In this document: in pieces, positions 22,641 through 32,180 of the stretch | Layout of the letters: each line of letters opens with the position of its first letter | Position numbering within the stretch: position 1 is the first letter of the stretch | Assembly: GCA_021792975.1 (NCBI GenBank) | Contig: JAJYTR010000009.1 | Span: 1-62,058, forward strand | Length of the DNA stretch: 62,058 nt | Reading direction: 5' to 3' | Source of the DNA: Pseudomonadota bacterium | GTDB taxonomy: Bacteria > Pseudomonadota > Gammaproteobacteria > Xanthomonadales > Rhodanobacteraceae | Notes under the pieces: generated by a model | Databases searched by the model: none | What the model saw: the letters and a program-made list of their open reading frames with translations, nothing else | What the model was told of the DNA's origin: nothing | Made by a program: the position numbers and the translations under genes

Positions 22641-23021
22641 TCATTCGGAAGTATTGGACTTGCTACCTCTGACCGTGATTGCGATCGCCGCCGCCTCATC
22701 CTCGGGTTGCGTCAGAAGGACAATCCCCGTCTCCTTCATGGTCCTGTCGCGAGGCAGGACGATGATCTTCTTGACCTGGTCGCCCGCGATACCAAAGCGC
22801 CTGAAATTGGCAGGCAGCCACTGCTTCAACCGCGCGGCGTCGGCAGGACCCATCCTGTCCAACTCCGCAAGCATCGCCTGCACTTGAATCGGGCTGGCGA
22901 GTTCGCCGGGATAGGTCAGTCGATAGATGTTGCTCTTGGAAAGGTTGAGGTTTGACGCAGCCCCCGCGATCGTCGCGAAAAGCAAGGACGCGACCACACA
23001 CAACGTATATCGTGCTTTCAT
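22641..23021 (-). CDS. Small exported protein of unknown function
   Basis: 126 residues. A signal peptide (MKARYTLCVVASLLFATIAGAAS) precedes a compact domain with SNIYRLTYPGELASPIQVQAML and DRTMKETGIVLLTQPEDEAAA. I do not recognise the family. The ATG at 23021 has a weak GAGGA-like stretch upstream. It lies 235 bp from the outer-membrane amyloid gene on the same strand, but the hydrophilic domain gives no hint of a link. The 235-bp gap shows no gene. Confidence 0.62.
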   Translation of the reverse strand: MKARYTLCVVASLLFATIAGAASNLNLSKSNIYRLTYPGELASPIQVQAMLAELDRMGPADAARLKQWLPANFRRFGIAGDQVKKIIVLPRDRTMKETGIVLLTQPEDEAAAIAITVRGSKSNTSE

Positions 23022-23256
23022 TTCGAGTTCCTCATTCCGCCGACCCATGTCGGCAAACGCTTCGGTTCAACGGCGGCGCGGAGCGCCCACGCGTCGTTCC
23101 GGGTATCCGTATCCGGTCCGTGTTGTTCCATCGCTCCGGCGATGCCTCGATCACCGCCGTTCCGGTTCGCTGATATTCATGCCTTTGCGGGTCGCAGGCG
23201 CGTCCCTGCCTGTGCAGGCTCCAGCAGCCTGCCGAGAGCAGGCGCGCTGAAACATG

Positions 23257-24624
23257 TCACAACACGAACGGCAGCTTGGCGGTGATGCTGAAGTCCGGCG
23301 CGTCGGGCGTGAGGCCGATCCCCAGGCTGCCCACGAAGGTCATGCGTTCGCCGAGCGCATAGGTCATGCCGAGGCCGAGCGTGGCAGCGTTGCCGTCGCT
23401 GCCGATCACTTTCTCCCACACGCCGGTGGCGTCGTTGCGGATCTTCGCGCTGCCGTTGAGGCGCTGCGCCAGACTCATGCTGAGACTCATGCGTTCGTTG
23501 AGCGCGAACGCCACGCCGACGCCGTAGTTGAAGGCGTTGCCCAGATTCACCTTGCCCGGGCTGACGGTGTCGGGACTGGTGTCCAGGTCGGCGAAGTGGC
23601 GGATGAAGGTATGGGTGATGCCGGCATTGGCGAAGAGGATGGCGGGATCCAGCGTCCTCAGCACGGAGGCACCGGCATGGACACTCCACACACCCTGACC
23701 GGTGGGCTGGCGCGTGGGCACCGCGAAGCGGATGAAGTCGTTGCTGTCGCGTTCCAGCACGTTCCAGGGAATGCCGTAGGGTGCCTGGCCGGTAGGCGCC
23801 GACAGGCCCGCGTTGAGGGCGAGTTCGGGACGGCCCGGTGTTTCGCGCAGTAGCCGGTAGCTGGCGCCGACGGCGACATCGCCGATGCGCGGTCCACCCG
23901 ACACGCTGGCCTCGGCCACGGCCGCCGCCGCACCGCCGGCACCGCCTTTCTGGTAGTCGGTCCAGCGCTGCACGAAGGGCACCTCAATGCTGGCCGTGAA
24001 ATTCTCGGTGAGGCCCTTGCGCGCGGCGAAACTGTAGGTGAAGGTATCCGAGGCCACGCGCTCGATGGCGATGGAGCCCAGGAAGATCGCGTCCAGCGCC
24101 AGGAAGCCGTTCAGCGTGAGCTGCTTGCGGTCGTAACGCTGGTAGTTCAGGCCCACTTCCAGCGTCAGCGGCTGATTGAACAGCACGTGCTGCTGCTGCA
24201 GCACGTCCTCGACGCTGCGCGCGGCCGGCTCCTGCCGCACGCTGCCCTCGCTGCCGACCAGGGCTTCGCCCGTCGCCGCTGCTGCTGCCGCAGCGGGGCT
24301 GGGTGCAGGCGCGGCCGGTAGTGCCGCGCCATCACCCTGCCGCATGGCCTGCACGCGCGCCACGCCTTCCTGCGCCTGTACACGCGCGGTCAGCGCCTGC
24401 AGCCGGATCTCCAGTTCGCGCAATCTGCGCACTTCCTCCGCGTAGCGCGACTTCAATGTCCGCAGCTCGCCCGCCATGGCGCGCACGTCCTGCGCGTTTT
24501 CGGCCGCGGCGGCGGCACCTCCCGCCTGCTGGACCGCGCTCTGCTGCGCACGCGCGGGTGCTGCCCGCGCGGCCAGCGCCATCACGATCAATGCCAGCAG
24601 CGCGCCGCTGTTGATCCGGTGCAT
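23257..24624 (-). CDS. fapF: FapF-like outer-membrane secretion barrel
   Basis: 455 residues. A signal peptide (to about 26, ARAQ) is followed by a heptad coiled coil (about 46-86, LRTLKSRYAEEVRRLRELEI). An Ala/Pro linker leads to a C-terminal beta barrel (about 150-455) with alternating strands and a final ITAKLPFVL. Pseudomonas FapF has this same plan: an N-terminal trimeric coiled coil and a 12-strand pore that exports amyloid subunits. It is last in the six-gene operon, preceded by a strong GGAGGAG site. A generic phenol_MetA_deg transporter label is the alternative. Confidence 0.75.
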   Translation of the reverse strand: MHRINSGALLALIVMALAARAAPARAQQSAVQQAGGAAAAAENAQDVRAMAGELRTLKSRYAEEVRRLRELEIRLQALTARVQAQEGVARVQAMRQGDGAALPAAPAPSPAAAAAAATGEALVGSEGSVRQEPAARSVEDVLQQQHVLFNQPLTLEVGLNYQRYDRKQLTLNGFLALDAIFLGSIAIERVASDTFTYSFAARKGLTENFTASIEVPFVQRWTDYQKGGAGGAAAAVAEASVSGGPRIGDVAVGASYRLLRETPGRPELALNAGLSAPTGQAPYGIPWNVLERDSNDFIRFAVPTRQPTGQGVWSVHAGASVLRTLDPAILFANAGITHTFIRHFADLDTSPDTVSPGKVNLGNAFNYGVGVAFALNERMSLSMSLAQRLNGSAKIRNDATGVWEKVIGSDGNAATLGLGMTYALGERMTFVGSLGIGLTPDAPDFSITAKLPFVL

Positions 24625-24665
24625 GCCTCTCCTCCCCCCGCAAGGTCACGGATGCGATGATGTTT

Positions 24666-25466
24666 TCAGCGCCCGCCGCGCAGGCCCTGCAGCAGACCCA
24701 GCGACTGCGCCACGTTCTGCCGCAGCATCTGTGCCGCGCTGCCGCCCACGGGCTGTACCAGGGTGATGCGCAGCTGATTGCTGACCGCGTGACTGTCGCC
24801 CAGCAGGCTGACGGTCTGCAGCACTGCGCCGCCGCCGTCGGCGTCGCCGCGGATGAGCTGGCGCAGGCTGCCCTGGCCGGCCAGATCCAGCGTCACGGCC
24901 ATGCGATCCGGCTGCAATGTCACGCTGGCGCTGGCAATGCCATCGCTCACCGCCGCGTTGCCGGCGACACCCGTGGCGGGCGTGGCCGGAAAGGCGGTGG
25001 TCAGATGCAGCTCGGTGCTGTTGCCGGCACTGTTGTGGTCGCCCGTGATCTGGATGCCCTGGACGATACCGCCGACGTTGGCCAAGCCACTGGCGTCGAT
25101 GCTGCGGCCGGTGGTGTCCACGAGCGCACCGCCGCTGCCCTGCACCAGGCTGACGGTGGGCACGAAGCTGATCTGCGGCGCGCCCTTGCTGAAATCGAAG
25201 CCCAGCAGCGCGCTGCCGCTGAACACGCGGCCGTCGCTGCTGCGCCATGTGGACAGCATCTCGACGCCGAAGTACAGGATCTGCCCGGCACCGGTGATGA
25301 AACGGCCTCGCATGTGATCGAGGGAGGCATCGGATACCGGCCGGATACCCGTGGCCGGCTGCGGGATGTACTCGCCCAATGCGGCCTGCTGGGCCATCAG
25401 TGGCAACGGCAGCGCCGTGTACACGAGCACTGCGGCAAGCGTGGCGAGTCTGACAAACGGATTCAT
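24666..25466 (-). CDS. fapE: FapE-like amyloid-associated secreted protein
   Basis: 266 residues with a signal peptide (to MAQQ, about 27). The mature protein carries GRFITGAGQILYFGVEMLSTW and two Asn/Gly-containing stretches (GIQITGDHNSAGNSTEL, LLGDSHAVSNQLRITLV) that echo the repeats of the FapB- and FapC-like proteins. It ends in an amphipathic tail QNVAQSLGLLQGLRGGR. In Pseudomonas FapE is a minor fibril component and possible chaperone. The assignment rests on operon position and repeat echo, not direct recognition. Confidence 0.6.
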   Translation of the reverse strand: MNPFVRLATLAAVLVYTALPLPLMAQQAALGEYIPQPATGIRPVSDASLDHMRGRFITGAGQILYFGVEMLSTWRSSDGRVFSGSALLGFDFSKGAPQISFVPTVSLVQGSGGALVDTTGRSIDASGLANVGGIVQGIQITGDHNSAGNSTELHLTTAFPATPATGVAGNAAVSDGIASASVTLQPDRMAVTLDLAGQGSLRQLIRGDADGGGAVLQTVSLLGDSHAVSNQLRITLVQPVGGSAAQMLRQNVAQSLGLLQGLRGGR

Positions 25467-25510
25467 ATCGGTCCTCGGTCCGTGACGGGGTGTGGGCCTC
25501 GTGCGTCGAT

Positions 25511-26221
25511 TCAGAACAGGTCGGCGTGGGTGAAGCCGAAATCGATCAGTTCGGCATCGGTGATCGGGCCCTGGCGGCTGCCCAGCAGGGCGCGCGCGCT
25601 GGGTCCGCTGCGCGCGTCCAGCAGTACGGTATTGCGGTCGAAGCCGGAGCCGATCACCACGAATACCGCCTGCGACGGCCACGCGGCCATGAAGTCCCGG
25701 AAGGTGTAGGTCCTGTTGCCCAGCGCCGGATCGGCCACGTACACACGGTCGCCGGCGACGCGCTTGAGCACCACGAAATGCTTGTAGCCGCGGGTATCCA
25801 GCAGCACGATGCCGGGCACGCGCAGGCTGCGCAGGCGCTGCTCGGACACCTTGTAGCCGCGGCCGCGCATGCCCAGTCCTTCGACATAGCGTTTGATGTC
25901 GAGCAGCGAGAAACCCTGCCGTTCCACCTTGACCGGATCGGCCTTGGCCAGCATGCCGGCCATCACCGTCCATTCGTCCACGCCGATGCCGTAGGCATAC
26001 TTCAGCAGCGTGGCCAGCGCCGCTGCACCGCAGCTGAAATCGGTGTTCTGCGGCACGATGTTGCGGAAGCGCGCCTCGCGCAGGCTGGTGACCCTGCCGG
26101 TGTACATCTCGCCGGTGGGCAGCACATCGCCGAAGCGGATGTCGGCCGCCCGCGCGGAACCACTGGCCGCAAGGACCAGCCAGCTCCACAACAGCATCAT
26201 GCGCGCGCGGCGGATGTCCAT
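25511..26221 (-). CDS. fapD: FapD-like C39-family peptidase
   Basis: 236 residues with a signal peptide or N-terminal anchor (to about 25) and a papain-like C39 domain. Catalytic Cys64 sits in NTDFSCGAAALATLL with Gln58 as the oxyanion partner, His148 in YKHFVVL and Asp164 in VADPALG. Fap D proteins are periplasmic C39 peptidases needed for fibril biogenesis, probably clearing or processing subunits. All catalytic residues are present, so it should be active. It is preceded by a hairpin (26259-26280). Confidence 0.82.
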   Translation of the reverse strand: MDIRRARMMLLWSWLVLAASGSARAADIRFGDVLPTGEMYTGRVTSLREARFRNIVPQNTDFSCGAAALATLLKYAYGIGVDEWTVMAGMLAKADPVKVERQGFSLLDIKRYVEGLGMRGRGYKVSEQRLRSLRVPGIVLLDTRGYKHFVVLKRVAGDRVYVADPALGNRTYTFRDFMAAWPSQAVFVVIGSGFDRNTVLLDARSGPSARALLGSRQGPITDAELIDFGFTHADLF

Positions 26222-26258
26222 GGGGGCTGATGCGTGATCAGGTCGATACCGGAGAGGA

Positions 26259-26280
26259 CGGGGCGGCCTGCGCCGCCCCG
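26259..26280 (-). other. GC hairpin between the fapC-like and fapD-like genes
   Basis: CGGGGCGGC (26259-26267) and GCCGCCCCG (26272-26280) are perfect 9-bp arms with a 4-nt loop. It lies 23 bp after the fapC-like stop. No T-tract follows on the minus strand, so it is more likely an mRNA-stabilising or attenuating stem than a full terminator. Such a stem could keep the major subunit more abundant than the downstream export proteins. Confidence 0.5.
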
Positions 26281-26303
26281 CCCGTCACGTCCGTGTCGCG
26301 ATA

Positions 26304-27668
26304 TCACTCGGGAGGCGTGCCGCCACCGCCACCCGTGCTGGGCTGCGTCACCGCCAGCGCCAGCGAGTTGGCCTGCTGGTTGCCGGTACCCGCGGCGATG
26401 TTGACGCCGATGTTGCCCATGGCGTTCTGCAACGCCGAACCGTTGAGCGTGGCGCTGTTGGTCGAGAGCACCGCCACTGTGGTCAGGTAGGTGATCGAAC
26501 CGGTGAGCATCGCGTCCATCTGCTCCAGCGTGATCTCGTTGTTGTTGTTCATCACCAGCGAGCCACCGTCGTTGCTGGGATCCCCGGGGTCGCTGCCCGG
26601 CGTGCGGCTGAGGTTGTTGTTGCCGATGTCGGTCAGCTGGGTATGCGTATCCCAGTCGGTATGGCCCTGCCACGGTCCGCTGGTCGGATGCGGCGTGGAC
26701 GGCGACTCACCCGACGCCTTGCCCCAGTTGTCGGGGTACATGTTGTAACGCTGGTCCGAGGTACCGATGGAAGTGCCCAGCACTTCGCCCCCCTCGCCGC
26801 TGCCGCTCACCGTGCCGGACAGGCTGACCGTGGCACTGTTGACTACCGTCTGGAAGTAGCCCTCGTTGAGCGTGTAGTTGCCCATCGCGTCCTGCTTGCC
26901 GTTGACCGAGGCCGTGGCCATGCTGTTGGTGCCGGTCGAGGCAGTCAGGTTGTTCTGCTGCTGGTTGTTGTTGCCGGCGGCGATGTTGACGCCGATGTTG
27001 CCCTGCGCGTTCTGCAGCGCGTTGCCGCCCAGGTTGGCGGCGTTGGTCTGGCCGAAATTGCCCGTGGTGTTGGCGGCGTTGAGCTGCTCGACGAACACTT
27101 CCGAGTCGGCCATGGTGAAGGCGAACGAGGCGTCCGCCGCGGCCAGGGCCGCCGCGTTGTGCTGCTGGTTGTTGTCGCCGGCCGCCACGTTCAGGCCAAT
27201 GTTGCCCTGGGCGTTCTGGGCTGCGTCGTCCGCGACTTGCGCGTCGTTGGCCAGCAGGTAGTTCTCGCCCTGGTTCTCGACGTTGTGCTGGCGATTGTCC
27301 ACCACGGCGATGGCGGCGGAGTCGGTCTGGATGCTGCCGCTGACCGTCGGCGCGCCGGTGATGGAGATGTTGGTCAGCAGGCTCAGATCCTTGTTCATGC
27401 GCACACGGCGGATCGAGGTGTCGCTGTTGACATCGACGTTTTCGTCATAGCGCACATTGCTGTAGATGTCGTTGTAGATGTAATTCAGCGTGGTGTTCTG
27501 GGTGTTGTGGATGGTGTTGGTGACGTCGTCGGTGTAGCTCAGCCACATCGCGCAATCGCCGGAACCCACATCGATCCCGCTGCAATCCTGCGCCAGCGCC
27601 GCCGGCGCGATACCGCCCGCACCGGCCAGGATGGCCAGCGCCAGCAGGTTTCGTTTCACGTTACGCAT
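26304..27668 (-). CDS. fapC: FapC-like major functional-amyloid subunit with three repeats
   Basis: 454 residues. A signal peptide (cleaved near ALA-QD, 26/27) leads to a Cys-containing N-terminal segment (Cys29, Cys39). Three imperfect repeats follow, with cores GNIGLNVAAGDNNQQ (155-169), GNIGVNIAAGNNNQQ (223-237) and GNIGVNIAAGTGNQQ (418-432), each preceded by QNA(Q/M). Linker 1 is about 50 residues and linker 2 about 180. Pseudomonas FapC has three repeats with a GVNVAA-type core and two linkers. The C-terminus ends in Gly/Pro without the Cys pair I recall from Pseudomonas. AGGAG precedes the ATG. Confidence 0.85.
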   Translation of the reverse strand: MRNVKRNLLALAILAGAGGIAPAALAQDCSGIDVGSGDCAMWLSYTDDVTNTIHNTQNTTLNYIYNDIYSNVRYDENVDVNSDTSIRRVRMNKDLSLLTNISITGAPTVSGSIQTDSAAIAVVDNRQHNVENQGENYLLANDAQVADDAAQNAQGNIGLNVAAGDNNQQHNAAALAAADASFAFTMADSEVFVEQLNAANTTGNFGQTNAANLGGNALQNAQGNIGVNIAAGNNNQQQNNLTASTGTNSMATASVNGKQDAMGNYTLNEGYFQTVVNSATVSLSGTVSGSGEGGEVLGTSIGTSDQRYNMYPDNWGKASGESPSTPHPTSGPWQGHTDWDTHTQLTDIGNNNLSRTPGSDPGDPSNDGGSLVMNNNNEITLEQMDAMLTGSITYLTTVAVLSTNSATLNGSALQNAMGNIGVNIAAGTGNQQANSLALAVTQPSTGGGGGTPPE

Positions 27669-27699
27669 TGCTGCATCTCCTGTCGTTGGAATGGATACA

Positions 27700-28329
27700 T
27701 CAACGGGGTGGCAGATCGACGGTGATGAGCAGGCGGTTGCCCGCCGTGTTGCCCATGCCGGCGATCTGGTTCAACTGCACCACCCCCTCGGCCCCGCGCA
27801 GCGCCGTACCCGAGACGGACGCGCTGCGTGGTGAAATGGAAGGGGAAGCGGCCGGGCGGCCCCCCGCAGCACCGCCCGATTGCGTGTCGAGGGCGGCCAG
27901 CGCTTCGCTGTCCGCCTCTTCGATACCCTGCGGCATCACCCCGCCGACTTGCATGGTGATGCGATTGGTCTCGCGGTTGCCCACCCCGCTGGCCTGGTTG
28001 ATGGCGATCAGCCCGGTGGCCCCGGACAGCGCGTTGCCGCCGATCAGCGCCGCCATCGCGTCGGGCGCGCTGGCACGGAACGCGGTGATGTGCTGCAACT
28101 GCACGACGTCGACCTGCGCCTGCCGGCCCATGGCGATGGCCTGCGCATTCGACTGCTGGTTGCCGTCGCCCGCGGCCAGGTTGACGGCGATGACCCCGCT
28201 GGCGCCGGACAGGGCATTGCCTTCCAGGCGGGTACTGGTCAGATAGCCCAGCCATGTCTCATGGGTATCCTGCGCCTGTGCCGGGCAGGAGCCCAGCAAC
28301 AGCATGCACAGGGCCGGCAGACGCACCAT
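27700..28329 (-). CDS. fapB: FapB-like minor amyloid subunit or nucleator
   Basis: 209 residues with a signal peptide (to PAQAQ, about 20). Three repeats follow: GNALSGASGVIAVNLAAGDG (37-56), GNALSGATGLIAINQASGVG (98-117) and GTALRGAEGVVQLNQIAGMG (174-193), separated by about 40 and 55 residues. The repeats resemble those of the larger fapC-like protein, and shorter FapB-type proteins are considered nucleators. The repeats degrade toward the C-terminus. The start overlaps the upstream stop by one base (TGATG), with AGGGAGG just before it. Confidence 0.78.
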   Translation of the reverse strand: MVRLPALCMLLLGSCPAQAQDTHETWLGYLTSTRLEGNALSGASGVIAVNLAAGDGNQQSNAQAIAMGRQAQVDVVQLQHITAFRASAPDAMAALIGGNALSGATGLIAINQASGVGNRETNRITMQVGGVMPQGIEEADSEALAALDTQSGGAAGGRPAASPSISPRSASVSGTALRGAEGVVQLNQIAGMGNTAGNRLLITVDLPPR

Positions 28330-28829
28330 CACCCGCCTCCCTTGAGCAGGCCGGCGCCCTGCAGTGCGCCGGTGATCTGGCCGCCCAGGTTGCGCGTCGC
28401 TCCGTGGATGTTGCCCAGGACACCGCCGGGGCCGGCCGCCGGTACCCCCGTGCCGCCCGCCGGGCCGCGCCCCGCGCCCAGTCCGAGCAGTCCGGCTCCC
28501 TGCAGTGCACCACCCACCGCCCCACGCGCGGAACGTCCCGGCACGGCGGCGGTGATCGCCGAGAAATCGGCATCGTCCAACTCGCTTCCGCCCAGCATCT
28601 GCTGCGTTTCGGGCTGCACGTTGGCAGACACCAGCACCGCCATGCCCGGCGGCTGGGTGCGGACGGCATGGCGCGCGGGCACCGTGCGTATCAGCACGAA
28701 CTCGCCGTTCTGCGCCTGCACCCCCCGCCGCACTCCGGCGGCTTCGGCCGGCAGCACCAGCAGGCCCAGCACCATCAATACGGCCAGCAGCAGCACCGAG
28801 CCGACGAACATGCGGGGAAACTTGAGCAC
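28329..28829 (-). CDS. fapA: FapA-like secreted protein, first gene of the amyloid operon
   Basis: 166 residues. The GTG at 28829 is chosen because GGAGAG lies 4-6 bp upstream and the expected sigma-54 start point falls near 28845, which excludes the in-frame ATG at 28847. MLKFPRMFVGSVLLLAVLM begins a signal peptide ending near AEAAG. The mature part has EFVLIRTVPARHAV and SELDDADFSAIT, then a Gly/Ala/Leu-rich low-complexity tail with two GALQGAGLL copies. Pseudomonas FapA is a short, disordered chaperone-like periplasmic protein, which this resembles in position and character. Confidence 0.65.
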   Translation of the reverse strand: MLKFPRMFVGSVLLLAVLMVLGLLVLPAEAAGVRRGVQAQNGEFVLIRTVPARHAVRTQPPGMAVLVSANVQPETQQMLGGSELDDADFSAITAAVPGRSARGAVGGALQGAGLLGLGAGRGPAGGTGVPAAGPGGVLGNIHGATRNLGGQITGALQGAGLLKGGG

Positions 28830-28855
28830 GACACTCTCCGTTGCCATGTCTGTAC

Positions 28856-28872
28856 TGCAAGGGTGGTGCCAA
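28856..28872 (-). promoter_or_regulatory. Sigma-54 promoter of the amyloid operon
   Basis: On the minus strand TTGGCACCACCCTTGCA matches the -24/-12 consensus TGGCAC-N5-TTGCA exactly. The -24 GG (28870-28869) and -12 GC (28858-28857) are 12 bp apart. Transcription should begin near 28845, about 16 nt before the fapA-like GTG. It implies RpoN and an enhancer-binding protein. Confidence 0.8.
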
Positions 28873-29367
28873 TGCGTGATTCGCTGCTTCATCAAGCGGT
28901 TGCACGGCATGCTCCGGCCGCGTCGCGCAGCCGCTGTCGCGCTGCCGATACAGCCGGGCGCGTCCGTTTCCCTGCAGGCCTTGGCCCTGCTCGCGCACTG
29001 CGCTGCGGCACCTGTAGCGGCCACGCAACAGCGCCGGTGCCATCGCATGTGGGGCCTGCCCGTTCTTGCCCGCTGCCGATCGCCGGTACGGTTGCCGCGG
29101 AACTTTGGCATGCGGCGTACACCGCCCCACCCGCATGTCCGCCCGTGATCGGCGGTGGCCAGTCGTTGCCTCCTGCGTACTCATCGGGCTCGCGCATCGT
29201 CCCGCCGCGCCCAGTCGATCCGGCTACGCCGGCGCGCGTCACGCGGGGCGGAACAGGCGCTGCACGGCGGCTGCGGCACGGCTGTGCATCGGCGCCGGTG
29301 AACGCGGTGCGGTGGCTGCGCAACCGTATGGACGCCGGGGATGCGACCGGCGCCTTATGCTGGATGC
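28873..29367. other. Long intergenic region between the amyloid operon and the diguanylate cyclase
   Basis: About 495 bp with no convincing gene; open frames here have shadow-like Arg/Ala/Pro composition. As the shared upstream region of two divergent units, it would be the place for enhancer-binding-protein sites and the cyclase promoter. I see no clear palindrome or -35/-10 pair. Confidence 0.5.

Positions 29368-32180
<2,813 letters not shown>

Follow-up and report, generated by a model that had tools for sequence, protein, structure and literature searches.

The locus described here raises the question of whether six consecutive minus-strand genes in a gammaproteobacterial contig, from an uncultured bacterium related to Rhodanobacter, form a working operon for Fap functional amyloid, and which of its features go beyond the Fap systems already described. 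The stretch of DNA that was analysed (contig JAJYTR010000009.1, 62,058 nucleotides, referred to throughout as the window) belongs, as contig 74, to a draft genome of 2.28 Mb and 76% completeness. The six open reading frames (ORFs) run from 28847 to 23257 in ORF coordinates, with spacing that ranges from a 1-base overlap between fapA and fapB at the minimum to an 82-base gap between fapC and fapD at the maximum. In a profile scan they matched, one after another, the NCBIfam models of FapA through FapF, which confirmed the one-for-one gene order claimed in a preliminary description of the stretch. Judged from its sequence, the locus is very probably a complete, and probably working, Fap operon of the type common in the Lysobacterales. 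As a class of finding this is already known, the operon being one more in a lineage with known Fap; the parts of interest beyond the known class are a module in the second linker of FapC and a sigma-54 box that appears order-wide. The features, all on the minus strand, are as follows.

28857..28871, minus strand: sigma-54 (-24/-12) box TGGCAC-N5-TTGC before fapA (exact consensus match)
28329..28829, alternative ATG at 28847, minus strand: fapA, predicted secreted chaperone-like protein with a Gly/Ala-rich tail (NCBIfam FapA)
27700..28329, minus strand: fapB, predicted minor three-repeat fibre subunit or nucleator (NCBIfam FapB, repeats)
26304..27668, minus strand: fapC, predicted major three-repeat fibre subunit (NCBIfam FapC, cryo-EM FapC)
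26637..26738, minus strand: conserved module in linker 2 of FapC, YPDNW...HP...GHTDWD...Q (62-sequence alignment)
25511..26221, minus strand: fapD, predicted C39 cysteine protease (NCBIfam FapD, Pfam PF03412)
24666..25466, minus strand: fapE, predicted exported fibre-associated protein with Fap-type repeats (NCBIfam FapE, FapB profile match)
23257..24624, minus strand: fapF, predicted outer-membrane export barrel with an N-terminal coiled coil (NCBIfam FapF, solved FapF)

Homology of the six proteins

The E-values against the NCBIfam models were 9e-9 for FapA, 2e-26 for FapB, 6e-48 for FapC, 1e-74 for FapD, 3e-23 for FapE and 8e-112 for FapF, and matches of this kind are far beyond chance. The only Pfam families above cut-off in the operon were the C39 domain in FapD and the outer-membrane family Phenol_MetA_deg in FapF (E 2e-7). 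FapA scored 35.8 bits against its model, for which the cut-off is 110, and residues R142, V144, R147, A149, R151 and P155 (numbered on the 260-amino-acid ORF) were present in 100% of 81 deduplicated sequences. The low-complexity tail that had been ascribed to this short secreted protein is visible in the translation as a Gly/Ala-rich stretch.

Three imperfect repeats were found in each of FapB and FapC, in line with the earlier suggestion that the two proteins share them. In FapB these span G45 to N61, G106 to N122 and G182 to N198, and an alignment of 47 sequences revealed an invariant skeleton in each: G45-N50-G54-N57-Q59-N61 in repeat 1, G106-N111-Q112-G115-N118-N122 in repeat 2 and G182-Q185-Q188-G191-N194-N198 in repeat 3. 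A CxxC motif was present in 3 of 90 FapBs. In FapC the repeat motifs start at residues 155, 223 and 418, and the repeat residues were invariant across 62 aligned sequences, comprising the window's protein and 61 drawn from 78 others of 280-560 amino acids. Comparison of the FapC profile with solved structures returned cryo-EM FapC, with E-values of 2e-24 (9nqd) and 4e-24 (9u4u).

The catalytic residues of FapD, Cys64, His148 and Asp164, were conserved together with Q58 in all 105 sequences aligned, a set that includes C39 proteins from the sister operon described below. The intact Cys-His-Asp of the preliminary description was thereby upheld, as was, by homology to the NCBIfam model, its likening of the protein to FapD. 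FapD matched Pfam PF03412 (C39) with an E-value of 2e-20, and the closest solved structures were the C39 domains of bacteriocin transporters (1e-7).

In FapE, the residues G133-Q136-Q139-G142-N145-N149 were conserved across 55 sequences, with Q136 nearly invariant, and their spacing is that of the third FapB repeat. The FapE family was also joined to the FapB family by hhalign (E 2e-6, probability 89%), and FapE is therefore considered to carry at least one Fap-type repeat. Its AlphaFold2 model (predicted local distance difference test, pLDDT, 80; predicted template modelling score, pTM, 0.71) was beta-rich, with eleven strands and a C-terminal helix, and a Foldseek search with the model gave no credible match in the PDB (best E 0.017, probability 0.09). 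No novelty attaches to FapE as a repeat protein, because AlphaFold-based solenoid models of it are already mentioned in print (PMC11787515).

FapF residues 132-453 aligned with the crystallised FapF barrel 5o65 in a sequence comparison (E 5e-78). The outer-membrane barrel proposed in the preliminary description thus stands by homology to 5o65, while visual inspection and a weak Pfam coiled-coil match (ATG16, E 0.07) are the basis for the N-terminal coiled coil.

Promoter, distribution and alternative readings

In the whole 62-kb window, both strands considered, the consensus TGGCAC-N5-TTGC was matched exactly at one place, by TGGCACCACCCTTGC at 28871-28857 on the minus strand. Because a sigma-54 box at this position would set the transcript start at about 28845, the GTG at 28829, which stands behind a GGAG Shine-Dalgarno-like stretch, is more likely to be the start of fapA than the ATG at 28847. 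When 200 bases upstream of fapA were searched in 72 non-redundant regions, the best site had no or one mismatch in 66; dinucleotide shuffles reached this in 1.9 of 72 and the opposite strand in 1. In 71 of the 72 regions the best site was located 71-156 bases upstream of where the FapA profile begins. Before redundancy removal the count was 86 of 92 regions, for which the 72 non-redundant regions give the fairer figure. A scan with a stricter pattern, anchored on ORF starts, found sites in 26 of 92 regions and missed the window's own box, because over-extended ORF starts put some boxes inside the ORF; the final counts are those anchored on the FapA profile.

The window's genome was found to encode one rpoN (E 5e-69) and four strong sigma-54 activators, with two further weak matches. 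In Pseudomonas fluorescens PF07, a -24/-12 element is located at the start of fapA mapped by 5' rapid amplification of cDNA ends, and expression of fapA-E falls in an rpoN mutant (PMC9207406). Apart from this single-strain promoter, a sigma-54 box of fap across the order was not reported in the available text of the open-licence literature searched. On the evidence of the upstream regions, RpoN-type control of fap seems to be a shared feature of a whole order, which would make fap regulation testable in many cultured species.

A FapF match above 360 bits was recorded in 18 of 61 genomes, including 9 of 13 from the window's genus (the window's own genome being counted both times). Among the best 80 of 122 FapF matches, the closest named relatives were the metagenome-assembled genomes (MAGs) DS4.bin36 (80% identity) and YP4.bin86 (74%) and Mizugakiibacter sp. 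SZUA-23 (61%), followed at greater distance by Rhodanobacter, Oleiagrimonas, Stenotrophomonas, Pseudoxanthomonas, Lysobacter, Luteimonas, Guyparkeria and Halothiobacillus. The Xanthomonadales-type host that had been suggested from the flanking genes was borne out by these relatives among the genomes compared. The order A-B-C-D-E-F was seen in 80 of 120 loci, a total in which the window, some places counted twice, the sister operons and loci on truncated contigs are included; the other 40 consisted of 8 D-F loci (the sister operon), 7 with B-C-D-E-F and a remainder either cut short or sorted differently, the latter probably owing to over-extended ORF starts. Three loci from the window's genus (L045, L048 and L049) have some 650-1000 extra bases between fapE and fapF. 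One locus titled Bacillus subtilis (L147, JAHREJ010000021.1) also carries a fap operon, with a FapF 53% identical to that of the window, as in the Stenotrophomonas loci; its title probably reflects contamination or mislabelling.

For FapC, proteins were deduplicated by identity (94 of 105 retained, some cut by contig ends) and divided into 78 of a 'Lysobacterales set' and 16 from other loci. The set was built on kinship labels and record titles, of which a few are non-specific or suspect (L092 'Gammaproteobacteria bacterium', L137 'Proteobacteria' and L147). The Pseudomonadaceae comparison comprised 20 loci from the 19 genomes with a FapC match among 79.

Several observations weigh against the assignment to a complete and working Fap operon. 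All six NCBIfam equivalog cut-offs were missed by the window's proteins, and the window's FapC, like all 78 of the Lysobacterales set, lacks the C-terminal CxxC motif described for Pseudomonas FapC, which was found in 7 of 16 other loci and 17 of 20 Pseudomonadaceae loci. No sigma-54 site within one mismatch was found in 6 of the 72 upstream regions, and none of the six activator-domain matches is encoded on the window's contig. The AlphaFold2 model of FapC, made from the 62-row alignment, was of low confidence (mean pLDDT 55, pTM 0.40, with linker 2 mostly below or near 50 pLDDT), and its best Foldseek match, FapC UK4 (E 0.24), was not significant, nor was the second, a CsgA fibre (E 1.6). 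Finally, a full FapF match was missing in 4 of the 13 genus genomes, which are drafts of 77-94% completeness, one of them having a partial match with an internal stop.

The NCBIfam cut-offs are taken to mark Pseudomonas-like members and not the published family, because FapF in all 61 genomes scanned and FapE in all 369 scanned were also under the cut-off, whereas that for FapC is reached in 19 of 79 Pseudomonadaceae genomes; the published family was delimited using wider hidden Markov models (PMC3792158). The CxxC motif was termed conserved in a 2018 review (PMC6173800) and is not used in the definition of Fap in the available portions of PMC3792158, PMC6173800 and the 2025 papers. As regards the stacked repeats that structure prediction had been expected to reveal, strands were modelled on all three FapC repeats, albeit with the low confidence given above; a FapC repeat stack is supported by the homology to cryo-EM FapC more than by the model.

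One interpretation of the missing FapF matches within the genus is that the operon is decayed or silent and that fibres are no longer made. Here, however, all six frames are open, and the FapD catalytic residues, the repeat skeletons and the promoter box are intact and conserved, so that decay is very improbable. A second possibility is that the operon is not Fap itself but a member of a sister family, either FilB/FilC-like or related to a glycine-rich C39/FapF operon. FapD does match FilB (121 bits) and FapF does match FilC (86 bits), and an operon combining C39, FapE-like and FapF-like proteins with glycine-rich subunits exists in the same bacterial order, but the Fap models are far stronger (374 versus 86 bits for FapF, 251 versus 121 for FapD), the FapF model gives the sister operons no more than about 133-170 bits, and the locus has FapB and FapC repeats, which align with solved FapC. 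Membership of such a sister family would accordingly be most surprising.

For the preferred reading, a working Fap operon, sequence comparison demonstrated the homology, the order of the genes, the catalytic residues, the repeat skeleton and the conservation of the promoter. What each protein does, and that the products are exported, nucleated and assembled into fibres, is proposed by analogy with work in Pseudomonas. RNA polymerase with RpoN (sigma-54), together with an activator, would transcribe fapABCDEF from the -24/-12 box, and all six proteins would enter the periplasm through Sec. FapA would keep FapC and FapB soluble, FapD would license export by proteolysis, and FapB, FapC and FapE would pass the outer membrane through FapF. 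Nucleated by FapB, the repeats of FapC would then stack to give a fibre of Greek-key amyloid in the biofilm matrix; FapE would associate with this fibre, and the linker-2 module of FapC would be displayed on its surface.

The conserved module in linker 2 of FapC

The linkers of FapC were termed highly variable by Dueholm in 2013 (PMC3792158), and a cryo-EM paper describes linker 2 as 35-259 residues long in four Pseudomonas variants, variable, flexible and perhaps a fuzzy coat (PMC12392863). In the alignment of 62 FapCs, nine positions of linker 2, namely Y291, D293, W295, H307, G315, H316, D318, D320 and Q324 (numbered on the stretch 26304-27608), were at least 90% conserved. A pattern search of these sequences detected the module in 57 of 62, and in one further sequence (L053) with F in place of Y. 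The relaxed pattern [YF].[DE].W..H..GH.D recovered it from 74 of the 78 Lysobacterales-set FapCs, from 13 of the 16 encoded at other loci, and from 2 of the 20 Pseudomonadaceae loci, L182 and L183, where E replaces D in both cases. The strict pattern (D only, HP) was matched by 62 of 78, 10 of 16 and 0 of 20, respectively, and no match occurred among 18,800 shuffled copies. Altogether 22 of the 94 FapCs had a D-x-[NDS]-x-DGG loop, 13 of them in the Lysobacterales set of 78 and 9 among the 16 others. A separate alignment of 40 FapCs was chosen for having the motif already, and its invariant columns are not independent evidence because the sequences were picked in this way.

No convincing Pfam family was found for the module, the matches being weak EF-hand and zinc-knuckle hits of single members (best E 0.0057), and a search of the PDB gave no credible solved relative, with one chance match at E 1.5. 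In the available text of the open-licence literature searched, supplements aside, linker 2 is described as variable and a motif within it is not mentioned.

The tentative, and rather unlikely, proposal made here is that linker 2 is more than a passive spacer and, in most of the FapCs compared from outside the Pseudomonadaceae, contains a mini-module (Yx[DE]xW-H-GHxDxD-Q), densely displayed on the fibre, that possibly binds Ca2+ or another metal and cross-links the matrix, and that is ancestral and was lost in Pseudomonas; metal binding in particular is a guess. If the proposal were true, a function that the Fap fibre originally had would be missing from the model system, because the experiments in the literature consulted were done in Pseudomonas, where the module would have been lost. 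Alternatively, the conservation may reflect shared ancestry of close relatives, without function. The sequences are mostly from the Lysobacterales, amounting to about 24 effective sequences at 70% identity weighting, and mean weighted conservation is higher in linker 1 (0.64) than in linker 2 (0.43), the values for the N-terminal region and the repeats being 0.27 and 0.76-0.78. Under the same weighting, with gaps counted, the nine module columns nevertheless stood at 0.79-0.92, and the module residues were kept in 13 of the 16 FapCs outside the Lysobacterales set and, with E for D, in two Pseudomonadaceae, while elsewhere linker 2 was variable. Shared ancestry as the whole explanation is therefore also regarded as doubtful.

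Neighbouring genes, a sister operon and known systems

A GAF-GGDEF diguanylate cyclase gene (29341-30942, plus strand) lies divergent from fapA. As some of the 119 loci compared are cut by contig ends, the neighbour-gene counts are subject to that limit; a close homologue of the GGDEF protein was found beside fap at one other place (L056, the same as L083), the next homologues (L067, L157, L161 and L148) scoring far lower, and on this count a cyclic di-GMP link with this gene as the partner of fap was dropped. About 200 bases downstream of fapF, an ORF for a small secreted protein (22641-23048, minus strand) had no Pfam match at E 1. It was dropped as a Fap component, as its homologues stand beside fap at three places among the 119 loci, all in the same genus (L053; L056, the same as L083; and L058, the same as L085).

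Outside the window, eight loci in related genomes (L062 6866-11179, L076 6945-11059, L077 7795-11803 and L078-L082) carry the sister operon, in the same order throughout: a glycine-rich secreted protein, a small secreted protein, a FapD-like C39 protein, a FapE-like protein and a FapF-like barrel. No match to FapB or FapC was found in these loci by profile scan, and the first two proteins of L076 matched no NCBIfam family. The likeness to FapE came from an iterated profile and was weak in a reverse test on L076 (1.2 bits). Both FapF types were present in three genomes (G014, G019 and G037). In a scan that was run without a control, exact sigma-54 boxes were seen near the ORF start in three of the eight loci (L076, L078 and L081), and boxes with one mismatch in L062 and L077. 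The sister operon may represent a second, unnamed Fap-type fibre system.

The novelty that the preliminary description had implied for Fap outside Pseudomonas does not hold, such systems having been reported in 2013 and surveyed in 2025. Dueholm 2013 placed fap in Beta-, Gamma- and Deltaproteobacteria and named Stenotrophomonas and Rhodanobacter (PMC3792158), fapD and fapF homologues were described as co-located in five additional phyla (PMC6173800), and a survey of GTDB v226 counted 1602 fap clusters, spread over many families of Pseudomonadota and reaching several further phyla (PMC12822426). The window's operon resembles Pseudomonas fap in its six genes and their order, in the match of FapF and FapC to solved Pseudomonas proteins, in the three repeats of FapB and of FapC, and in an RpoN-type promoter before fapA, as in PF07. 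It differs in that its proteins fall below all the NCBIfam cut-offs and in that its FapC has the linker-2 module, lacks the C-terminal CxxC and has a Gly-rich tail closing with Glu. The fap loci of Stenotrophomonas, Rhodanobacter, Pseudoxanthomonas, Lysobacter and Luteimonas share its gene order and, for the most part, its FapC type with the module; among the best 80 of 122 matches, FapF identity to the window was about 45-55% for the named genera and 56-81% for MAGs of its own genus.

The Fil system of Acinetobacter (FilB/FilC) likewise combines a C39 peptidase with a FapF-like barrel, and the window's NCBIfam matches to Fil were much weaker than those to Fap; Fil is not known to have Fap repeats. 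Curli (csg) resembles Fap in having a nucleator, a repeat subunit and a dedicated outer-membrane exporter (PMC12822426), but the exporter in Fap is a different one, and no Pfam or NCBIfam match to the Csg families was found among the seven window proteins scanned. A reason to look beyond Pseudomonas is that the Fap fibre of the Lysobacterales and of several other groups has a conserved module in a linker that has been called variable, and that in the Lysobacterales it is also without the CxxC motif.

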